NCBI GenBank assembly: GCA_016342355.1
Contig: JAEINP010000013.1
Span: forward strand, 1-64,000
From: Desulfatibacillum sp.
GTDB taxonomy: Bacteria; Desulfobacterota; Desulfobacteria; Desulfobacterales; Desulfatibacillaceae
Direction: 5' to 3'
Length of the DNA: 64,000 nt
A model generated the notes under the pieces. It was not told the DNA's origin. It saw only the letters and a list, made by a program, of their open reading frames with translations, and made no database searches. The translations under genes and the position numbers were made by a program. This document shows, in pieces, positions 28,713-34,902 of the stretch. The stretch's first letter is position 1. The number at the start of each line of letters is the position of its first letter.

Positions 28713-28739
28713 AACAGCCATTGTTTTAGGCTGTTTTAT
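28713..28739 (+). terminator. Terminator of argJ-rluB
   Basis: AACAGCC (28713-28719) and GGCTGTT (28729-28735) form a 7-bp stem followed by TTTTATA on the plus strand. It overlaps the stop codon of the convergent regulator gene. Confidence 0.7.
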
Positions 28740-30135
28740 AATCCCGTTTATCCAATCCGTATTTTTTCATCTTATTGTAAAGGGACCGGGATGTTATCCC
28801 GGCCAGATCCGCTGCCTGCCCAATCCTGCCCGCGGCTTCCTGTAGCACGGACTCCAGGTACAGCTTTTCCACCTGTAGCAGTGCCTGCTCCGTAACCTCT
28901 TTCAGGGTTTTGCCCTTCCATGAATCCGGGGCCGTATCCTGGCGCAGGGTGTCATCCTGAATGCTGCTCTTGAAGATATGGGGCAGGTCCCGGATGGTGA
29001 TTTCCCTGTCCGGGCAAAGAATAATGGCCCGCTCCAGCACGTTAAAAAGCTCCCGCACGTTGCCGGGCCAGTCATAGCGCGTAAGGGCTTCCATGGCTTG
29101 ATGAGAGATGCTTTCCACGTCCTTTCCATGGCGTGTATGCTGTTGGGCAATAAACTCCTGGGCCAGGTGGGCTATGTCTTCCCTTCGGTCTTTCAGGGGC
29201 GGGATGGTGATGGTGATGACGCTCAGGCGGTAGAAGAGGTCTCCCCGGAATTCCTTGTTGCGTACTTCTTCCTCCAAATCCCGGTTGGTGGCTGCAATTA
29301 CCCGCACGTCCACCCAGGTGGATTTGTCGCCTCCCAGGGGTTTGACTTCAAAATCCTGTAGCACGCGTAGCAGCTTGGCCTGGAGATGGATGGGCATCTC
29401 GCCGATTTCGTCCAGGAAAATAGTGCCCTTGTGGGCCATTTCAAAGGCCCCCCGCCTGGACCGTACCGCTCCGGTAAAGGCTCCCTGAATGTGGCCGAAC
29501 AGTTCGCTTTCCAGCAATGTTTCAGGCAGGGCCGCCATATTCACGGCCACAAAAGGTCCGGCGGACCGGGCGCTTTCAAAATGGATGGCCCGGGCAAGGC
29601 GCTCCTTGCCCACCCCTGTCTCTCCGGCGATAAGCAACTGGGCGTTGCTGGAAATAACCTGCCGGACCTCCTGGAGCATGACCTGCATGGATTGGCTGCT
29701 GGACCTGAAATCCTCCATCCTCGGACGGCTGCCGGCCTTGGGGGTAGGCGCGGTCCGCAGAATATATTGCGTCCGTGATTCGATGACCGCCTCAATGGCC
29801 TGGACAATGCTTTTGGTCGGGATGCCCGAGTGGAGCACCACGTCCGCCCCGGCAGCCACCAGTCCGGCCTGATCCTCGGAGGATTCGTGGGTGTGCAAGA
29901 TGATGGTGGCCGGGTTTTCCGGCAGATCATTGAGGGCGGCAATGCTGGATTCTGCAGGCAGGGGAAGCAGGCTTTGGTTGATGACCACAATGTCGGCGCA
30001 ACTGCGGATGACGCTTTGCCAGGAAAAGCGTCCCGGCCCATAGGCTTCCAGGCTGATATCCAGGTCTTCCAGGGCCTTTTTCATTTTTTGGAGCAGGTTT
30101 TTATTGTCGATGCATAGGGCGATTTTCAGGAGCAT
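28726..30135 (-). CDS. Sigma-54-dependent transcriptional activator with degenerate receiver
   Basis: A 469-residue enhancer-binding protein. The N-terminal 120 residues have a receiver-like fold but the phospho-acceptor position reads VVIN rather than D, so it is probably not phosphorylated normally. The AAA+ domain (about 140-375) has Walker A GETGVGKE, the sigma-54 loop GAFTGA and FRGDLFYRL. A Fis-type HTH closes the protein (GQAADLAGITSRSLYNKM). The ATG at 30135 has GGAGA upstream. It is divergent to an operon with a -24/-12 promoter, its likely target. Confidence 0.9.
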   Translation of the reverse strand: MLLKIALCIDNKNLLQKMKKALEDLDISLEAYGPGRFSWQSVIRSCADIVVINQSLLPLPAESSIAALNDLPENPATIILHTHESSEDQAGLVAAGADVVLHSGIPTKSIVQAIEAVIESRTQYILRTAPTPKAGSRPRMEDFRSSSQSMQVMLQEVRQVISSNAQLLIAGETGVGKERLARAIHFESARSAGPFVAVNMAALPETLLESELFGHIQGAFTGAVRSRRGAFEMAHKGTIFLDEIGEMPIHLQAKLLRVLQDFEVKPLGGDKSTWVDVRVIAATNRDLEEEVRNKEFRGDLFYRLSVITITIPPLKDRREDIAHLAQEFIAQQHTRHGKDVESISHQAMEALTRYDWPGNVRELFNVLERAIILCPDREITIRDLPHIFKSSIQDDTLRQDTAPDSWKGKTLKEVTEQALLQVEKLYLESVLQEAAGRIGQAADLAGITSRSLYNKMKKYGLDKRDYKTA

Positions 30136-30569
30136 GAGCTTCTCCAAAAGGGTTGGGGAGGTAAGAAAGGATGTTAACCGGCAAGGAAAATTTACCGGTT
30201 TTGGGTGTCCTCAGGTATTTGGGGGGAGTGTATCGGAAATTCAATTCCGAAGTCAATGAATGAATGCCTGAAACATAAAGATATACTTGGGATTTTTTAA
30301 AGTAAGAAATTAAATTCCTTTATTTTTGAAAAAATAAGCAATCTATTTCCTTTTTGTCCGGGGCTTCCGCCCCGGGGGCCTTCCGGCCTCCCTCACTCAC
30401 TCGCACGCAACCGCTGATTTCTCCTCCCGCCTTCTGGTTTGGTCATTATCTATAACTATCTAATGTCATTTATTTTTTTGTAATTTGTTCCCATTTCTTG
30501 CTGGCAGTGAAAAATTATTTCAGAGAATGGCCCCGCAAATGACGCTGTTTTTGGAAATACGGTTTTTTT
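30136..30569. other. Intergenic region with inverted repeats upstream of the sigma-54 promoter
   Basis: Two inverted repeats could bind the activator: AACCGG/CCGGTT (30176-30200) and TCGGAA/TTCCGA with a 6-base centre (30233-30250). Two adjacent GC hairpins with TTCC loops lie at 30360-30388. The rest is AT-rich. No gene is visible. Confidence 0.45.
30360..30388. repeat. Tandem TTCC-loop hairpins
   Basis: GGGGC-TTCC-GCCCC (30360-30373) and GGCC-TTCC-GGCC (30377-30388) stand side by side in AT-rich DNA. They look like a small palindromic intergenic repeat. Confidence 0.5.
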
Positions 30570-30585
30570 TGGCACACCACTTGCC
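30570..30585 (+). promoter_or_regulatory. Sigma-54 promoter (-24/-12)
   Basis: TGGCAC-ACCAC-TTGCC has the GG and GC dinucleotides 10 bases apart, matching the sigma-54 consensus. Transcription should start near 30596, 55 bases before the SpeD-like gene. The divergent gene encodes a sigma-54 activator. Confidence 0.85.
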
Positions 30586-30650
30586 TTAGGGCAGTTTGTT
30601 CGGAAACATTCATGTGTTTTCGCCTATACAATTTAATTGGGGATACTCAA

Positions 30651-31289
30651 ATGATGACGAAAAAGAAGAAACGCATCTCAGGCGCCAAGGGAATGGGAAA
30701 CCGTGAAGTCTTTCCTGTGGTGGAAATGGATTTCGATGCTGAGAGAATGAGCCGCAAACAGCGCTCTCTCAAGTTTTCCAAGGAAGTGCATAAAAAGGGC
30801 AACCCTGAGGATGAGTTGGATTTTGCCGACGACTATACCGGGGATGGCGAAACCCAATATCGTGAAGGTCCGGCAGGACCCTTTGCAGTTAATTCGTTGT
30901 TTGAAGGAGAAGCCATCAAGGAACAGATGGAAAATGAAGCATGCTGGGGCCTGGCTTCGGCTGTTGACATTTACGGATGCGATCCGGACCTTATCCGGAA
31001 CGCGGAAGCCATCAAGCGCTTTGTGGTGGAGTTGTGCGACCTCATTGATATGAAACGCTTCGGGGAAACCCAGGTGGTCCATTTTGGAGAAGACGAGAAG
31101 GTGGCGGGTTACTCCATGGTCCAGTTGATCGAAACTTCGCTCATTTCGGCTCATTTCGCCAATTTGACAAAAACCGTGTACCTGGATGTGTTCAGTTGCA
31201 AGTCGTATAACCCTCAACTGGTTCGCCAGTTTGCCGAGAATTTTTTCAAGGGGTCTGAAAGCAACCTCCAAGTGTCCATGAGGAGATAG
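30651..31289 (+). CDS. SpeD-family (AdoMet decarboxylase-like) pyruvoyl protein with altered active site
   Basis: A 212-residue protein. Residues 1-90 are a charged extension not found in SpeD. Residues 98-205 align without gaps to prokaryotic AdoMet decarboxylase around the processing site: S163 matches the pyruvoyl-forming Ser, H168 and C183 match the catalytic His and Cys. But the Glu before the Ser is T162, the next His is Leu (L164) and the WPE substrate motif is ANL (170-172). A pyruvoyl enzyme with another substrate, or a non-processed homologue, is likely. The ATG at 30651 has GGGG 8 bases upstream. First gene of the sigma-54 operon. Confidence 0.75.
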   Translation: MMTKKKKRISGAKGMGNREVFPVVEMDFDAERMSRKQRSLKFSKEVHKKGNPEDELDFADDYTGDGETQYREGPAGPFAVNSLFEGEAIKEQMENEACWGLASAVDIYGCDPDLIRNAEAIKRFVVELCDLIDMKRFGETQVVHFGEDEKVAGYSMVQLIETSLISAHFANLTKTVYLDVFSCKSYNPQLVRQFAENFFKGSESNLQVSMRR

Positions 31290-31292
31290 GGA

Positions 31293-32267
31293 ATGACAAG
31301 GATATCCCTGGTTAACGACCAGGACCTGGTCGCCCGACTTTGGGCGACTCACATGCCCGAGCCTGGAAACGTGTTTGACCTGTGGGAAACCCGGATGTGT
31401 TTTGACCGGTCTTTTAGGCGGCCTGTACTCGCTGTGGTGGCCTCGGACGGACTTGGCCAAACCACAGGGTTTTTGCCCCTCTCCTGGGTGGAGGAAACCG
31501 CCAAGTGGGTGTATTTTCCAGGGGAAACCTGGAAAGGCAAAACTTGGCTGGAGGGAAACCTGATCCCGGCCAGGGACCCGGAAACCATGGAGGCCCTTTT
31601 GGAGGCCATTCCCGGGGACGCTTATCTGAGGTATCTGGACCCGATGGCGCAGGCGTTTCCTTATCCGGGCGCGGACCAGGATGAAGTGGGATATTTGTTT
31701 TTTCCCGAAAGGTATTCCAATAATTATCAGGAATATCTTCAGAGTTTTCCCCGGAAGACCATCAAGAAACTCCTGGGGGAAATGGCCCGGCTGGAAAGCC
31801 GGGGCGTGACATACCGGTTTGACAGCATGGAAGACGCCCAGCGCCTTTTGCAGATGAACCTGGAAGCCTTTGGTCCGGAATCGTACTTTTTTGACTCCCG
31901 TTTTTCCACGGGTTTTGAGAATCTTCTTGCCTGGCTCAAGCAAAACAATCTCCTTCGGATCACCACGGTCCTTATTGAAGGCCGCGTTGCGGCCGTGGAT
32001 GTGGGCGCCTTGTGGCGGGGGCATTATTCCATCCTGGCCGGTGGTGTGGACCAAGAATTCCCGGGAGTGGCCAAGGTCATCAATTTTCATCATTTGGAAA
32101 GGGCTTGCGCTGAAAAGCTGAATTGTGTGGACTTCTTGTGCGGGAATTTTAATTGGAAAGAGCGCCTGCGCCTCATCCCCCGGCCCCTTATGGAGATCCG
32201 TCTGGAGGAGCAACCTGGCATGGTCTATTCTCCGGTCAAGGAAGAGGAGCACGCAGTCAGTGTATGA
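31293..32267 (+). CDS. BioF2/FemAB-like GNAT-fold acyl- or aminoacyl-transferase
   Basis: A 324-residue soluble protein. The second half (about 150-310) resembles the Acetyltransf_6/BioF2-like GNAT domain used by FemAB-type peptidyl transferases: RKTIKKLLGEMARLE, then VLIEGRVAAVDVGALWRGHYSIL and VINFHHLERACAE. The first half is a second, more divergent GNAT-like unit. It starts 3 bases after the SpeD-like gene with GGAG upstream and overlaps the ATP-grasp gene by 8 bases. It probably acylates an amine made or used by its neighbours. Confidence 0.7.
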   Translation: MTRISLVNDQDLVARLWATHMPEPGNVFDLWETRMCFDRSFRRPVLAVVASDGLGQTTGFLPLSWVEETAKWVYFPGETWKGKTWLEGNLIPARDPETMEALLEAIPGDAYLRYLDPMAQAFPYPGADQDEVGYLFFPERYSNNYQEYLQSFPRKTIKKLLGEMARLESRGVTYRFDSMEDAQRLLQMNLEAFGPESYFFDSRFSTGFENLLAWLKQNNLLRITTVLIEGRVAAVDVGALWRGHYSILAGGVDQEFPGVAKVINFHHLERACAEKLNCVDFLCGNFNWKERLRLIPRPLMEIRLEEQPGMVYSPVKEEEHAVSV

Positions 32268-33507
32268 GACATCCAGGGTGTTGGTGGTTGGTACAACTCC
32301 CGATTATGTGGACAGGATAAGGACAATCCGGCCCGGTAAAGCCTTGTTCCTTACCAGCCCGCAACTCAGGGAAAAGGCCTTGGAAACTCCTCCTGCCCGG
32401 GAAGAGGAAATTTTGTGCCCCCTCAAACCCAAGGAGGCGTTACAGGCTGTGGAAAGGCATCTTGCCGCCCATGACCTGACTTTGGGGGGGATTGCCTGTT
32501 TTGATTGTGAAACCATGATCCTGACGGCCACCTTGGCCAAGGAACTGGAACTGGACTATCCGGCCCTGGATGCGGTAATGAATTGCCGCAATAAGTACAG
32601 GGCCAAAAATCTGTGGCAGGCTGCCCATCTCCCCACTCCCCGTTTTGGATTGGTGAATGATTCGGGCAAGGCCTGGTCCTTCATGGAAAAAACCCGGCCG
32701 CCCTGGGTGGCCAAACCTTTGGACGGATCAGGCAGTTCCCTGGTGTTTAAATTGGAAAAGCCAGGGGACTTGGAGGGCGCCGCGGCAAAAGCCAAGGCGT
32801 TTTATGTCAAGCAGGGGCAGGATGCCCAAAAAGCGTGGCCCATGCTCCTGGAGGAAATGGCCCCGGGCCCGGAATACAGCGCGGATTTTCTTTTTGTGGG
32901 AGGCCAGGCCCGGATATTGCGGCTCACCGCCAAGCATCGTCTGGCTTCGGAGCTTTTTGGCATCACCCAGGCTTATGAATTGCGGGAGAACCTGCTTTCC
33001 GAAAAAGATCGGCGCGAATTGGAAAACCTGTTCGCCCGGGCCGCCAGGGCATTGGGTCTGGCGGCTTGTATTTGCATGGTGGATTTTATCCTTAATGAAC
33101 AGGGGCCGTGGCTTTTGGAAATAGCCCCACGGCCCGGTGGGGATTGTCTGCCTCTGTTACTCAGGAAAGCAGGCGGACCGGACACCATGGGATTTGCCCT
33201 GGATTTTGCAGGCAAAGCCCCCTTGCCCCAGGATGGAAAAACCCTCAGCCCCCATGTAGGCCTGCGGATTTTCGCTCCCTGCAATGGTGTGTTGGAAAAA
33301 TTGGAGACCGAGGCCTTACTCAGGGATAAACGCGTGGTTTGTTTCGAATCCATTAGGCAACCCGGTGACAGGGTGGAACTGCCGCCTAAGGATTACGATT
33401 CCTGGATATTGGCAAATATAATTTACAAACCAAGGACCGGCGAGGACATCGCCCTGCAGAACCGGGAATTGTCCAGCCTGGTATCCGTTAGGATAAAGCG
33501 CCCATGA
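32260..33507 (+). CDS. ATP-grasp carboxylate-amine ligase
   Basis: A 415-residue ATP-grasp ligase. An N-terminal Rossmann-like part (VLVVGTTPDYVDRI) precedes the ATP-grasp fold: VAKPLDGSGSSLVFK, LLEEMAPGPEYSADF and the metal-binding LLEIAPRPGGDCLPLL. Such enzymes join a carboxylate to an amine through an acyl phosphate. The GTG at 32260 has GAGGAG about 10 bases upstream and keeps the N-terminal Rossmann strand; any longer start lies deep in the GNAT gene. Its stop overlaps the next ATG by 4 bases (ATGA). Confidence 0.82.
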   Translation: MYETSRVLVVGTTPDYVDRIRTIRPGKALFLTSPQLREKALETPPAREEEILCPLKPKEALQAVERHLAAHDLTLGGIACFDCETMILTATLAKELELDYPALDAVMNCRNKYRAKNLWQAAHLPTPRFGLVNDSGKAWSFMEKTRPPWVAKPLDGSGSSLVFKLEKPGDLEGAAAKAKAFYVKQGQDAQKAWPMLLEEMAPGPEYSADFLFVGGQARILRLTAKHRLASELFGITQAYELRENLLSEKDRRELENLFARAARALGLAACICMVDFILNEQGPWLLEIAPRPGGDCLPLLLRKAGGPDTMGFALDFAGKAPLPQDGKTLSPHVGLRIFAPCNGVLEKLETEALLRDKRVVCFESIRQPGDRVELPPKDYDSWILANIIYKPRTGEDIALQNRELSSLVSVRIKRP

Positions 33508-34829
33508 CATTTGACTACACTCCACATCAGGCTAGTACGCGGGATGCTCTTTCCCGCCTGGAATCCATGCTCCGGCACCGGGAAAAGACCCTGCCAGGGA
33601 CTAAACTCCGGGCTTATGTGGAGCGTTTTTTCAACATGAAGGATGTCTTTCTGGACTTGGCGGCCGTCCACCAGGAACCCCTTTATGTGCTGGATCATGA
33701 AAATCTCCGCAAGCAGGCAGGCATATTTAAAGAGACTTTCGCCGCCTGTTTTACGGATTTCTCCTGTTACTACGCCATGAAAAGCAACAGCCATCCAGAT
33801 GTCTCCAAGACTCTCCTGGAACAGGGTTTTGGCCTGGATGTGTCTAGCGGGGTGGAGGTGGAAACCGCCCTGTCCCTGGGTGCTTCCAATATCATTTTCA
33901 GCGGTCCGGGAAAAACCGCCAAGGAACTTTCCCTGGCCGTGGCAAACAGTTCACGGGTGACTGTCCTTATGGACAGCCCCGGCGAACTGGAGCGCCTGAA
34001 CCTCCTGGCGTGTCAGGCCGGGAAGAAAATCAGGGTGGGCCTGCGGATCACCCCCCCGCTCAGCCCCTGGAAAAAATTCGGGGTTCCCATGGCAAGGCTG
34101 GGGGCCGTGTGGAAAAGGGCGCAGGAATGCGAAGGCCTGGATATTCGGGGCCTCCAGTTTCATACAAGCTGGAACCTGGACCCTTCCCAGCAGACCAAAA
34201 CCATTGCGGCCATAGGCAAGGAGATCAGCCAGTGGTCGTCCTCCATGCTCCATTCCCTGGAGTTTTTGGATATTGGCGGAGGATACTGGCCCCAGGCAGG
34301 GGAGTGGCAGGTGTATCCGGCCACTCAGGCTGGGCAGGTGCAAAAATTGGCGGGGCTGGACATCCAAAAACCCCTGGAGCATTTTTACGCCCCGGCCAGC
34401 CCCCTGGAGATTTTCGCCCAGTCTCTGCACCAGGCCCTGGAACGGCATATTTTCCCGGTCGCGCCTTGCCGGGTTTGTCTGGAACCGGGACGTTGGCTAA
34501 GCAACGGGGCCATGCACCTGCTCCTGAACGTAGTGGACAAAAAAGATCCCGGCCTGGTCATTACCGATGCGGGAACCAACGCCATCGGCTGGGAGCGTTT
34601 TGAAATGGATTATGCCCCCGTGCTGAACCTGACCCGCCCTTCCATGGAGGAAAAGGCCTGTGAAATCATGGGGTCCCTGTGCACGCCGCACGACCTGTGG
34701 GGGCTTTCCTACTGGGGGGAGGATATTCAACCCGGAGACGTCCTCCTGATTCCGGATCAGGGCGCCTATACATACAGCCTGAGGCAGAATTTTATCAAAT
34801 CCATTCCCCGCGTTGTTCCCATGCCTTAG
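33504..34829 (+). CDS. Fold-type III PLP-dependent amino-acid decarboxylase
   Basis: A 441-residue alanine-racemase-fold decarboxylase, related to diaminopimelate, ornithine and carboxynorspermidine decarboxylases. PLP lysine is K93 (YYAMKSNSHPDV). H220, the GGG phosphate loop (258-260), EPGR (327-330) and the dimer-active-site C393 (GSLCTPHDLWG) are kept, as is the C-terminal GAYTYSL. The substrate-specificity helix is not decisive. It is close to the class used in natural-product pathways, where a carrier- or peptide-linked amino acid is decarboxylated. Coupled to the ATP-grasp gene. Confidence 0.85.
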   Translation: MTFDYTPHQASTRDALSRLESMLRHREKTLPGTKLRAYVERFFNMKDVFLDLAAVHQEPLYVLDHENLRKQAGIFKETFAACFTDFSCYYAMKSNSHPDVSKTLLEQGFGLDVSSGVEVETALSLGASNIIFSGPGKTAKELSLAVANSSRVTVLMDSPGELERLNLLACQAGKKIRVGLRITPPLSPWKKFGVPMARLGAVWKRAQECEGLDIRGLQFHTSWNLDPSQQTKTIAAIGKEISQWSSSMLHSLEFLDIGGGYWPQAGEWQVYPATQAGQVQKLAGLDIQKPLEHFYAPASPLEIFAQSLHQALERHIFPVAPCRVCLEPGRWLSNGAMHLLLNVVDKKDPGLVITDAGTNAIGWERFEMDYAPVLNLTRPSMEEKACEIMGSLCTPHDLWGLSYWGEDIQPGDVLLIPDQGAYTYSLRQNFIKSIPRVVPMP

Positions 34830-34839
34830 CAAGTCTCAT

Positions 34840-34902
34840 CCCGGTATTGGCGCATGGGCGAAAAGCCTTTTGCCCTGCGCCAGCCGGGCCTTTCTCATTT
34901 TT
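34840..34902 (+). terminator. Terminator of the SpeD-like operon
   Basis: A long interrupted hairpin: CCCGG, TGGCGCA and GGGC on the left pair with GCCC, TGCGCCA and CCGGG on the right (34840-34888), followed by a T-rich tail (34891-34902). It separates the four-gene operon from the downstream hydrolase gene. Confidence 0.75.

Follow-up and report, generated by a model that had tools for sequence, protein, structure and literature searches.

Structure of the operon

We analyzed a stretch of 64,000 nt from Desulfatibacillum sp. (contig JAEINP010000013.1; this whole stretch is called the window, and coordinates are positions in it). Between 30570 and 34889 we found four tightly coupled genes on the + strand, preceded by a −24/−12 promoter, followed by a terminator and accompanied by a divergent gene for a sigma-54 activator. 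The four genes encode a SpeD-like pyruvoyl enzyme, a double-GNAT transferase, an ATP-grasp ligase and a fold-III decarboxylase dependent on pyridoxal phosphate (PLP). The features are as follows:

28726..30147, − strand: divergent sigma-54-dependent activator with AAA+ domain, Fis-type helix-turn-helix and pseudo-receiver N-terminus (Pfam Sigma54_activat, AAA_lid_14, HTH_8)
30570..30584, + strand: −24/−12 sigma-54 promoter core TGGCAC-N5-TTGC, TGGCACACCACTTGC (10/10 specified bases)
30651..31289, + strand: gene 1, probable SpeDC, i.e. SpeD-derived pyruvoyl L-ornithine decarboxylase (PF02675, 79.8 bits; catalytic and diagnostic residues)
31293..32267, + strand: gene 2, FemABX-like double-GNAT transferase (Pfam Acetyltransf_6; AlphaFold 2 model, pLDDT 90)
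32260..33507, + strand: gene 3, ATP-grasp ligase of the L-amino-acid-ligase type, GTG start (Pfam ATP-grasp_4/_3; AlphaFold 2 model, pLDDT 91)
33504..34829, + strand: gene 4, fold-III PLP decarboxylase of the LysA/SbnH/FslC/BtrK group (Pfam)
34840..34888, + strand: intrinsic terminator hairpin followed by a T-rich tail (−37.2 kcal/mol, z −5.8)

An earlier note, made from the sequence of the window alone, had described these four families, their tight joining, the promoter, the terminator and the divergent activator, and all of this was borne out, including the sizes of the gap and of the two overlaps. Genes 1 and 2 are separated by 3 bases, genes 2 and 3 overlap by 8 and genes 3 and 4 by 4 bases. 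When the upstream region was shuffled 300 times, the promoter score of 10/10 was never reached. Residues of gene 1 are numbered in the open reading frame of 225 amino acids (30612–31289) as first called; the ATG at 30651 is the likelier start, because it is preceded by GGGGA and gives 212 amino acids, the length of the reading frame in D. alkenivorans. In the activator, the N-terminus matches a receiver domain only at E 0.14 (Pfam) and, by eye, carries Asn where the phosphorylated Asp is expected. We took a −24/−12 promoter together with a sigma-54 activator as the marks of a sigma-54-dependent operon, and both are present.

Distribution and conservation of the operon

To collect related loci, we used genes 1 and 2 as queries and then mapped the genes. 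All four genes are present in unchanged order in 16 complete loci from many families of the Desulfobacterota and from one metagenome-assembled genome (MAG) labelled Planctomycetota. Because gene set and order repeat in this way, the arrangement is far beyond chance, and the neighbourhood search that the earlier note had called for thus came out in favour of a linked set. Several loci even share the 8-base overlap between genes 2 and 3, a match of at least 8/10 to the −24/−12 consensus lies upstream of 11 of 19 operon loci, and orthologues of the activator (52–83% identity) adjoin the operon in several of them. Apart from this activator, the flanking genes differ between loci. These observations support a single transcription unit that is conserved together with an activator of its own; family assignments, operon unity and intact catalytic residues are all strongly supported by the sequence comparisons. 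Conservation across the Desulfobacterota, which had also been asked about, turned out to be patchy only. Gene 2 is carried by 14 of 395 sampled Desulfobacterota genomes (about 3%), in which it is matched over its full length at about 1e-130, and no further match appeared down to 1e-20 in these 395 genomes except for a contig-end fragment in G373. We rejected this fragment as a second gene copy, as it is the other end of one contig-split operon (98% overlap). A SpeD-like gene is present in 13 of the 14 carriers. The operon is a real unit, yet a rare one. Several of the genomes are draft MAGs.

The Planctomycetota-labelled MAG holds the whole operon together with the activator, either through horizontal transfer or through mis-binning. 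No gene 2 relative was found among the plasmids searched, and the phages searched contained just one remote relative of gene 1. At three loci (L061/L074, L062/L075 and L063/L076) a second cluster adjoins the operon and, with names assigned by eye, encodes in each case a lysine 2,3-aminomutase-like radical SAM protein, two D-Ala-D-Ala-ligase-like ATP-grasp proteins and a GNAT-HDAC fusion, with an additional GNAT in two of the three. In L061 and L062 a citrate synthase, likewise named by eye, stands directly 3' of gene 4.

Gene 1 is a probable ornithine decarboxylase

For the SpeD-family protein the earlier note had left two roles open, supply of aminopropyl groups or decarboxylation of another amino acid, and our results favour the second. 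Gene 1 reaches only 26 bits with the S-adenosylmethionine (AdoMet) decarboxylase model TIGR03330 (cut-off 75.65), and on the basis of this score and of the SpeDC residues described below we rejected it as an AdoMet decarboxylase and aminopropyl source. In an ungapped alignment the SpeD motif AESHISIHT corresponds to ETSLISAHF in gene 1. The protein keeps the pyruvoyl serine S176 (codon 31137–31139), a histidine five residues on (H181) and the downstream cysteine C196, which correspond to Ser63, His68 and Cys83 of Thermotoga maritima SpeD and are invariant in the 16 operon loci. Four residues in the central region, Gln, Thr, Phe and Tyr, are diagnostic of those SpeD homologues that act as pyruvoyl L-ornithine decarboxylases (Li et al. 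2023, PMC10407285). Following this criterion, and matching positions by residue identity and order, we found Q171, T175, F182 and Y190 in gene 1 and in all 15 complete orthologues. Because the pyruvoyl Ser/His/Cys set and all four diagnostic residues are present, gene 1 is probably a SpeDC that makes putrescine from L-ornithine.

In a tree that included the domains of SpeD-SpeDC fusion proteins and had no biochemically proven SpeDC sequences among its members, the operon SpeDCs form one group (94/82). Their nearest relatives outside this group are the C-terminal domains of the fusions, whose genes adjoin SpeE. The fusion of locus L018 (278 amino acids from Met6, Ser at 79 and 229) is identical in these respects to that of Desulfotignum phosphitoxidans, whose C-terminal domain proved to be an ornithine decarboxylase (PMC10407285). 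We infer that this assay result carries over to gene 1. The published SpeDCs share with gene 1 the catalytic and diagnostic residues and the kinship with fusion domains but belong to spermidine or homospermidine clusters (PMC10407285), whereas the operon partners of gene 1 are a GNAT, an ATP-grasp ligase and a LysA-like decarboxylase.

The SpeDCs of both Desulfatibacillum species carry an acidic N-terminal extension of about 90 amino acids (30651–30950) that is missing from other relatives. In L027, L028, L018 and L019 the fusion gene precedes SpeE, a gene for a small GNAT and one for a protein of about 310–330 amino acids, which by eye is DUF2156-like in three of the four. Standalone SpeDC-like genes with no operon genes 2–4 nearby were seen in L065, L068, L070 and L071; their conserved neighbours resemble, by eye, a 2-oxoacid:ferredoxin oxidoreductase and an acyl-CoA ligase.

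Genes 2–4 resemble enzymes of amide formation and conjugate decarboxylation

Gene 2 gave only chance matches in a sequence search of the PDB. Its AlphaFold model is closest to the aminoacyl-tRNA-dependent peptide synthases Sba18 and Sbb17 and to FemX (Z 17–18 over about 260–280 residues), followed by MprF (Z about 15) and by acyl-CoA-dependent GNATs (Z at most 14). The double GNAT fold, our criterion for the FemABX group, spans the whole chain. By this ranking of folds gene 2 resembles aminoacyl-tRNA-dependent FemX-type transferases more closely than acyl-CoA enzymes, so that of the acyl and aminoacyl transfer previously considered the latter is favoured; use of aminoacyl-tRNA would follow from the fold ranking alone. 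It shares the double fold with FemX and the streptothricin-type synthases Sba18 and Sbb17 at 10–16% identity, and its tRNA dependence is putative. The catalytic lysine of FemX is Lys305 (PMC12945691); the invariant K289 near the C-terminus of gene 2 is a candidate for its counterpart.

The model of gene 3 matches the L-amino acid ligase BL00235 best (3vot, Z 35.5, 381 residues aligned) and RizA next (31.8). The ligase fold, which we required over the whole length, is common to gene 3 and to BL00235, RizA and BacD, with gene 3 only about 20% identical to them. The model thus supports a ligase of the amide-making kind, with amide formation from amino acids as the predicted reaction.

Gene 4 retains the fold-III residues K93, EPGR, C393, D397 and Y422, all invariant, and a G-x-LCTPxD loop common to SbnH and BtrK. 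Its family profile scores are 140.8 bits for SbnH, 140.6 for FslC, 128 for LysA and 125.6 for BtrK. It stays below the cut-offs of the diaminopimelate decarboxylase model TIGR01048 (150.4 bits, cut-off 297.9) and of the FslC model (76.1 bits, cut-off 500); none of genes 2–4 reached the cut-off of a curated NCBIfam model. We rejected gene 4 as the housekeeping LysA or carboxyspermidine decarboxylase, as both are encoded elsewhere in the genome; the separate LysA has CESTD where gene 4 has CTPHD. SbnH (6knh; PMC7139808), FslC/FigC and BtrK decarboxylate amino acids that are already tied to citrate or to a carrier (PMC7857480). We regard gene 4 as a LysA-related enzyme and, from a profile that ranks SbnH and FslC first, as a candidate conjugate decarboxylase. 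The systems in which these enzymes work, staphyloferrin B (SbnH), rhizoferrin (FslC/FigC) and butirosin (BtrK), likewise use a LysA-derived fold-III enzyme, with the LCTPxD loop in SbnH and BtrK, but the present operon has neither a synthetase for siderophores independent of non-ribosomal peptide synthetases (NRPSs), termed NIS synthetase, nor a carrier protein. The earlier assignment of the ligase and the decarboxylase to amide-forming and amino-acid-decarboxylating enzymes agrees with the fold and profile matches.

Proposed pathway and alternative explanations

At slightly better than even chances, we propose that the sigma-54-controlled operon makes a small NRPS-independent amide in which putrescine is joined to an amino acid and the conjugate is decarboxylated and capped. 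SpeDC would cleave itself between Thr175 and Ser176 to form its pyruvoyl cofactor and decarboxylate L-ornithine to putrescine for the pathway. The ligase would activate the carboxylate of an amino acid with ATP and join it to an amine, most simply putrescine, and gene 4 would then strip the alpha-carboxylate from the tethered amino acid. Fold-III decarboxylases require a free alpha-amino and a free alpha-carboxyl group; if gene 4 follows gene 3, the amino acid would for this reason be attached through its side chain, perhaps as gamma-glutamyl-putrescine, which would yield 4-amino-N-(4-aminobutyl)butanamide (the 4-aminobutanamide of putrescine). Finally, gene 2 would cap a free amine with an aminoacyl group from aminoacyl-tRNA or with an acyl group. 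This scheme is the simplest that fits the families; step order, amino acid, linkage and final product are all putative. No transporter recurs at the loci, which weakly suggests that the product is intracellular. The amide-linked, decarboxylated amino acid or polyamine conjugate envisaged before our analysis is thus largely upheld as a reading, apart from its aminopropyl variant; control by nitrogen or stress, also raised in the earlier note, is a possible further feature.

In favour of this pathway we count the invariant SpeDC residues and the kinship of the operon SpeDCs with the fusion domains, the fixed gene order, the strongly correlated pairwise distances of genes 2–4 (r 0.87–0.92), the other putrescine routes of most operon genomes, which make this SpeDC look dedicated, the three-gene locus of G018, the first ranks of SbnH and FslC in the gene 4 profile, and the Streptomyces and fungal E-64 clusters described below. 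Several observations weigh against it. The substrates assigned to all four enzymes are predictions, and the resemblance of genes 2 and 3 to their models, at 10–20% identity, would allow aminoacyl-tRNA or acyl-CoA as donor and peptide or other ligation. The LysA score of gene 4 nearly equals those of SbnH and FslC. The pairwise distances of SpeDC correlate with those of the other genes at only r 0.56–0.74, either because the protein is short or because it is a looser partner. The complete chromosome G018 lacks SpeDC, although genes 2–4, the divergent activator and a promoter-like site (8/10) are all there (L098, 5879–9975), and its sole SpeD homologue adjoins SpeE; SpeDC thus need not be part of the pathway. 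On the other hand, such a pattern would be expected if the metabolite made by gene 1 can also be obtained from primary metabolism. The three-gene locus itself represents either a natural loss of SpeDC or the ancestral state.

We consider it unlikely that the operon instead modifies the cell envelope, with the FemAB-like enzyme and the ATP-grasp ligase coupling either putrescine or an amino acid that has lost its carboxylate to lipids or peptidoglycan precursors. The peptidoglycan of Veillonella and Selenomonas contains bound putrescine and cadaverine, and FemX/FemA and MprF, modifiers of peptidoglycan precursors and lipids, are among the closest folds of gene 2. However, the small-molecule transferases Sba18 and Sbb17 tie for the best fold, L-amino-acid ligases use free amino acids, and among the differing neighbours of the loci no cell-wall gene recurs.

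Quite improbable, in our view, is an ordinary polyamine supply, in which SpeDC provides extra putrescine for spermidine and genes 2–4, though linked, serve a separate function. SpeDC is the least co-varying member, and the spermidine route of G000 is CASDH/CASDC, which needs putrescine; yet the gene order is fixed in 16 loci, and at least 14 of the 16 operon genomes have another putrescine route. Among these routes are the biosynthetic arginine decarboxylase SpeA (6 of 16 genomes) and the pyruvoyl arginine decarboxylase PvlArgDC (also 6 of 16, including the window genome). In G035 and G089 another SpeDC-like gene adjoins SpeD and SpeE, and in L018 and L019 a complete SpeD-SpeDC/SpeE locus is found within a few kb of the operon. 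G120 and G186 have extra SpeD homologues whose specificity is unassigned. By gene content, spermidine is made elsewhere in the operon genomes, by CASDH/CASDC or SpeD/SpeE. We therefore rejected SpeDC as sole putrescine source for these at least 14 genomes, and because of their other routes the operon SpeDC looks like a dedicated supply.

A carboxylate siderophore-like chelator of the rhizoferrin, staphyloferrin B or vibrioferrin kind is very unlikely: gene 4 resembles SbnH and FslC, rhizoferrin has a putrescine core and in two loci the operon is directly followed by citrate synthase, but the four operon proteins show no IucA/IucC-type NIS synthetase match in Pfam, no exporter or receptor recurs at the loci and control is by sigma-54.

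Relation to other clusters and significance

Among described systems, the fungal E-64 clusters also combine a dedicated decarboxylase for a polyamine block with an ATP-grasp amide ligase, and their decarboxylase is dispensable when polyamines are already present; in contrast to our operon, their decarboxylase is of an unrelated class, an ANL amide synthetase takes the place of the GNAT and an oxygenase makes the warhead (PMC12568646). Two Streptomyces plasmids (NZ_CP098484.1 and NZ_CP108443.1) encode distant relatives of genes 4, 3 and 2 in one run. These clusters (L101, 6953–12069; L103, 7890–13049) comprise a 2OG-Fe dioxygenase, a methyltransferase, a LysA-like decarboxylase, an MFS transporter, an ATP-grasp protein and a GNAT; unlike the operon, they have no annotated SpeD homologue, and dioxygenase, methyltransferase and transporter are extra. 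In view of this distant run, the three core genes may form an older module that acquired SpeDC in the Desulfobacterota.

Each enzyme is a member of a known superfamily, and their combination is absent from the open-licence literature searched, where we found no description of the four-gene set or pathway, in line with the earlier statement that no named pathway has this gene set. It is possible, though we would put it somewhat below even chances, that a putrescine amide bearing an aminoacyl cap and a decarboxylated amino acid is an NRPS-independent natural product, or an intracellular solute, of a new class, its ornithine decarboxylase being SpeD-derived and recruited from primary polyamine metabolism into a dedicated pathway. 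If so, this would to our knowledge be the first neofunctionalised SpeD that works outside spermidine or homospermidine synthesis. It would also add a compact four-enzyme route to a new polyamine conjugate to the little-known specialised metabolism of sulfate reducers, and the FemAB-like/ATP-grasp/LysA-like triad, seen in Streptomyces too, would be a searchable signature of further pathways.

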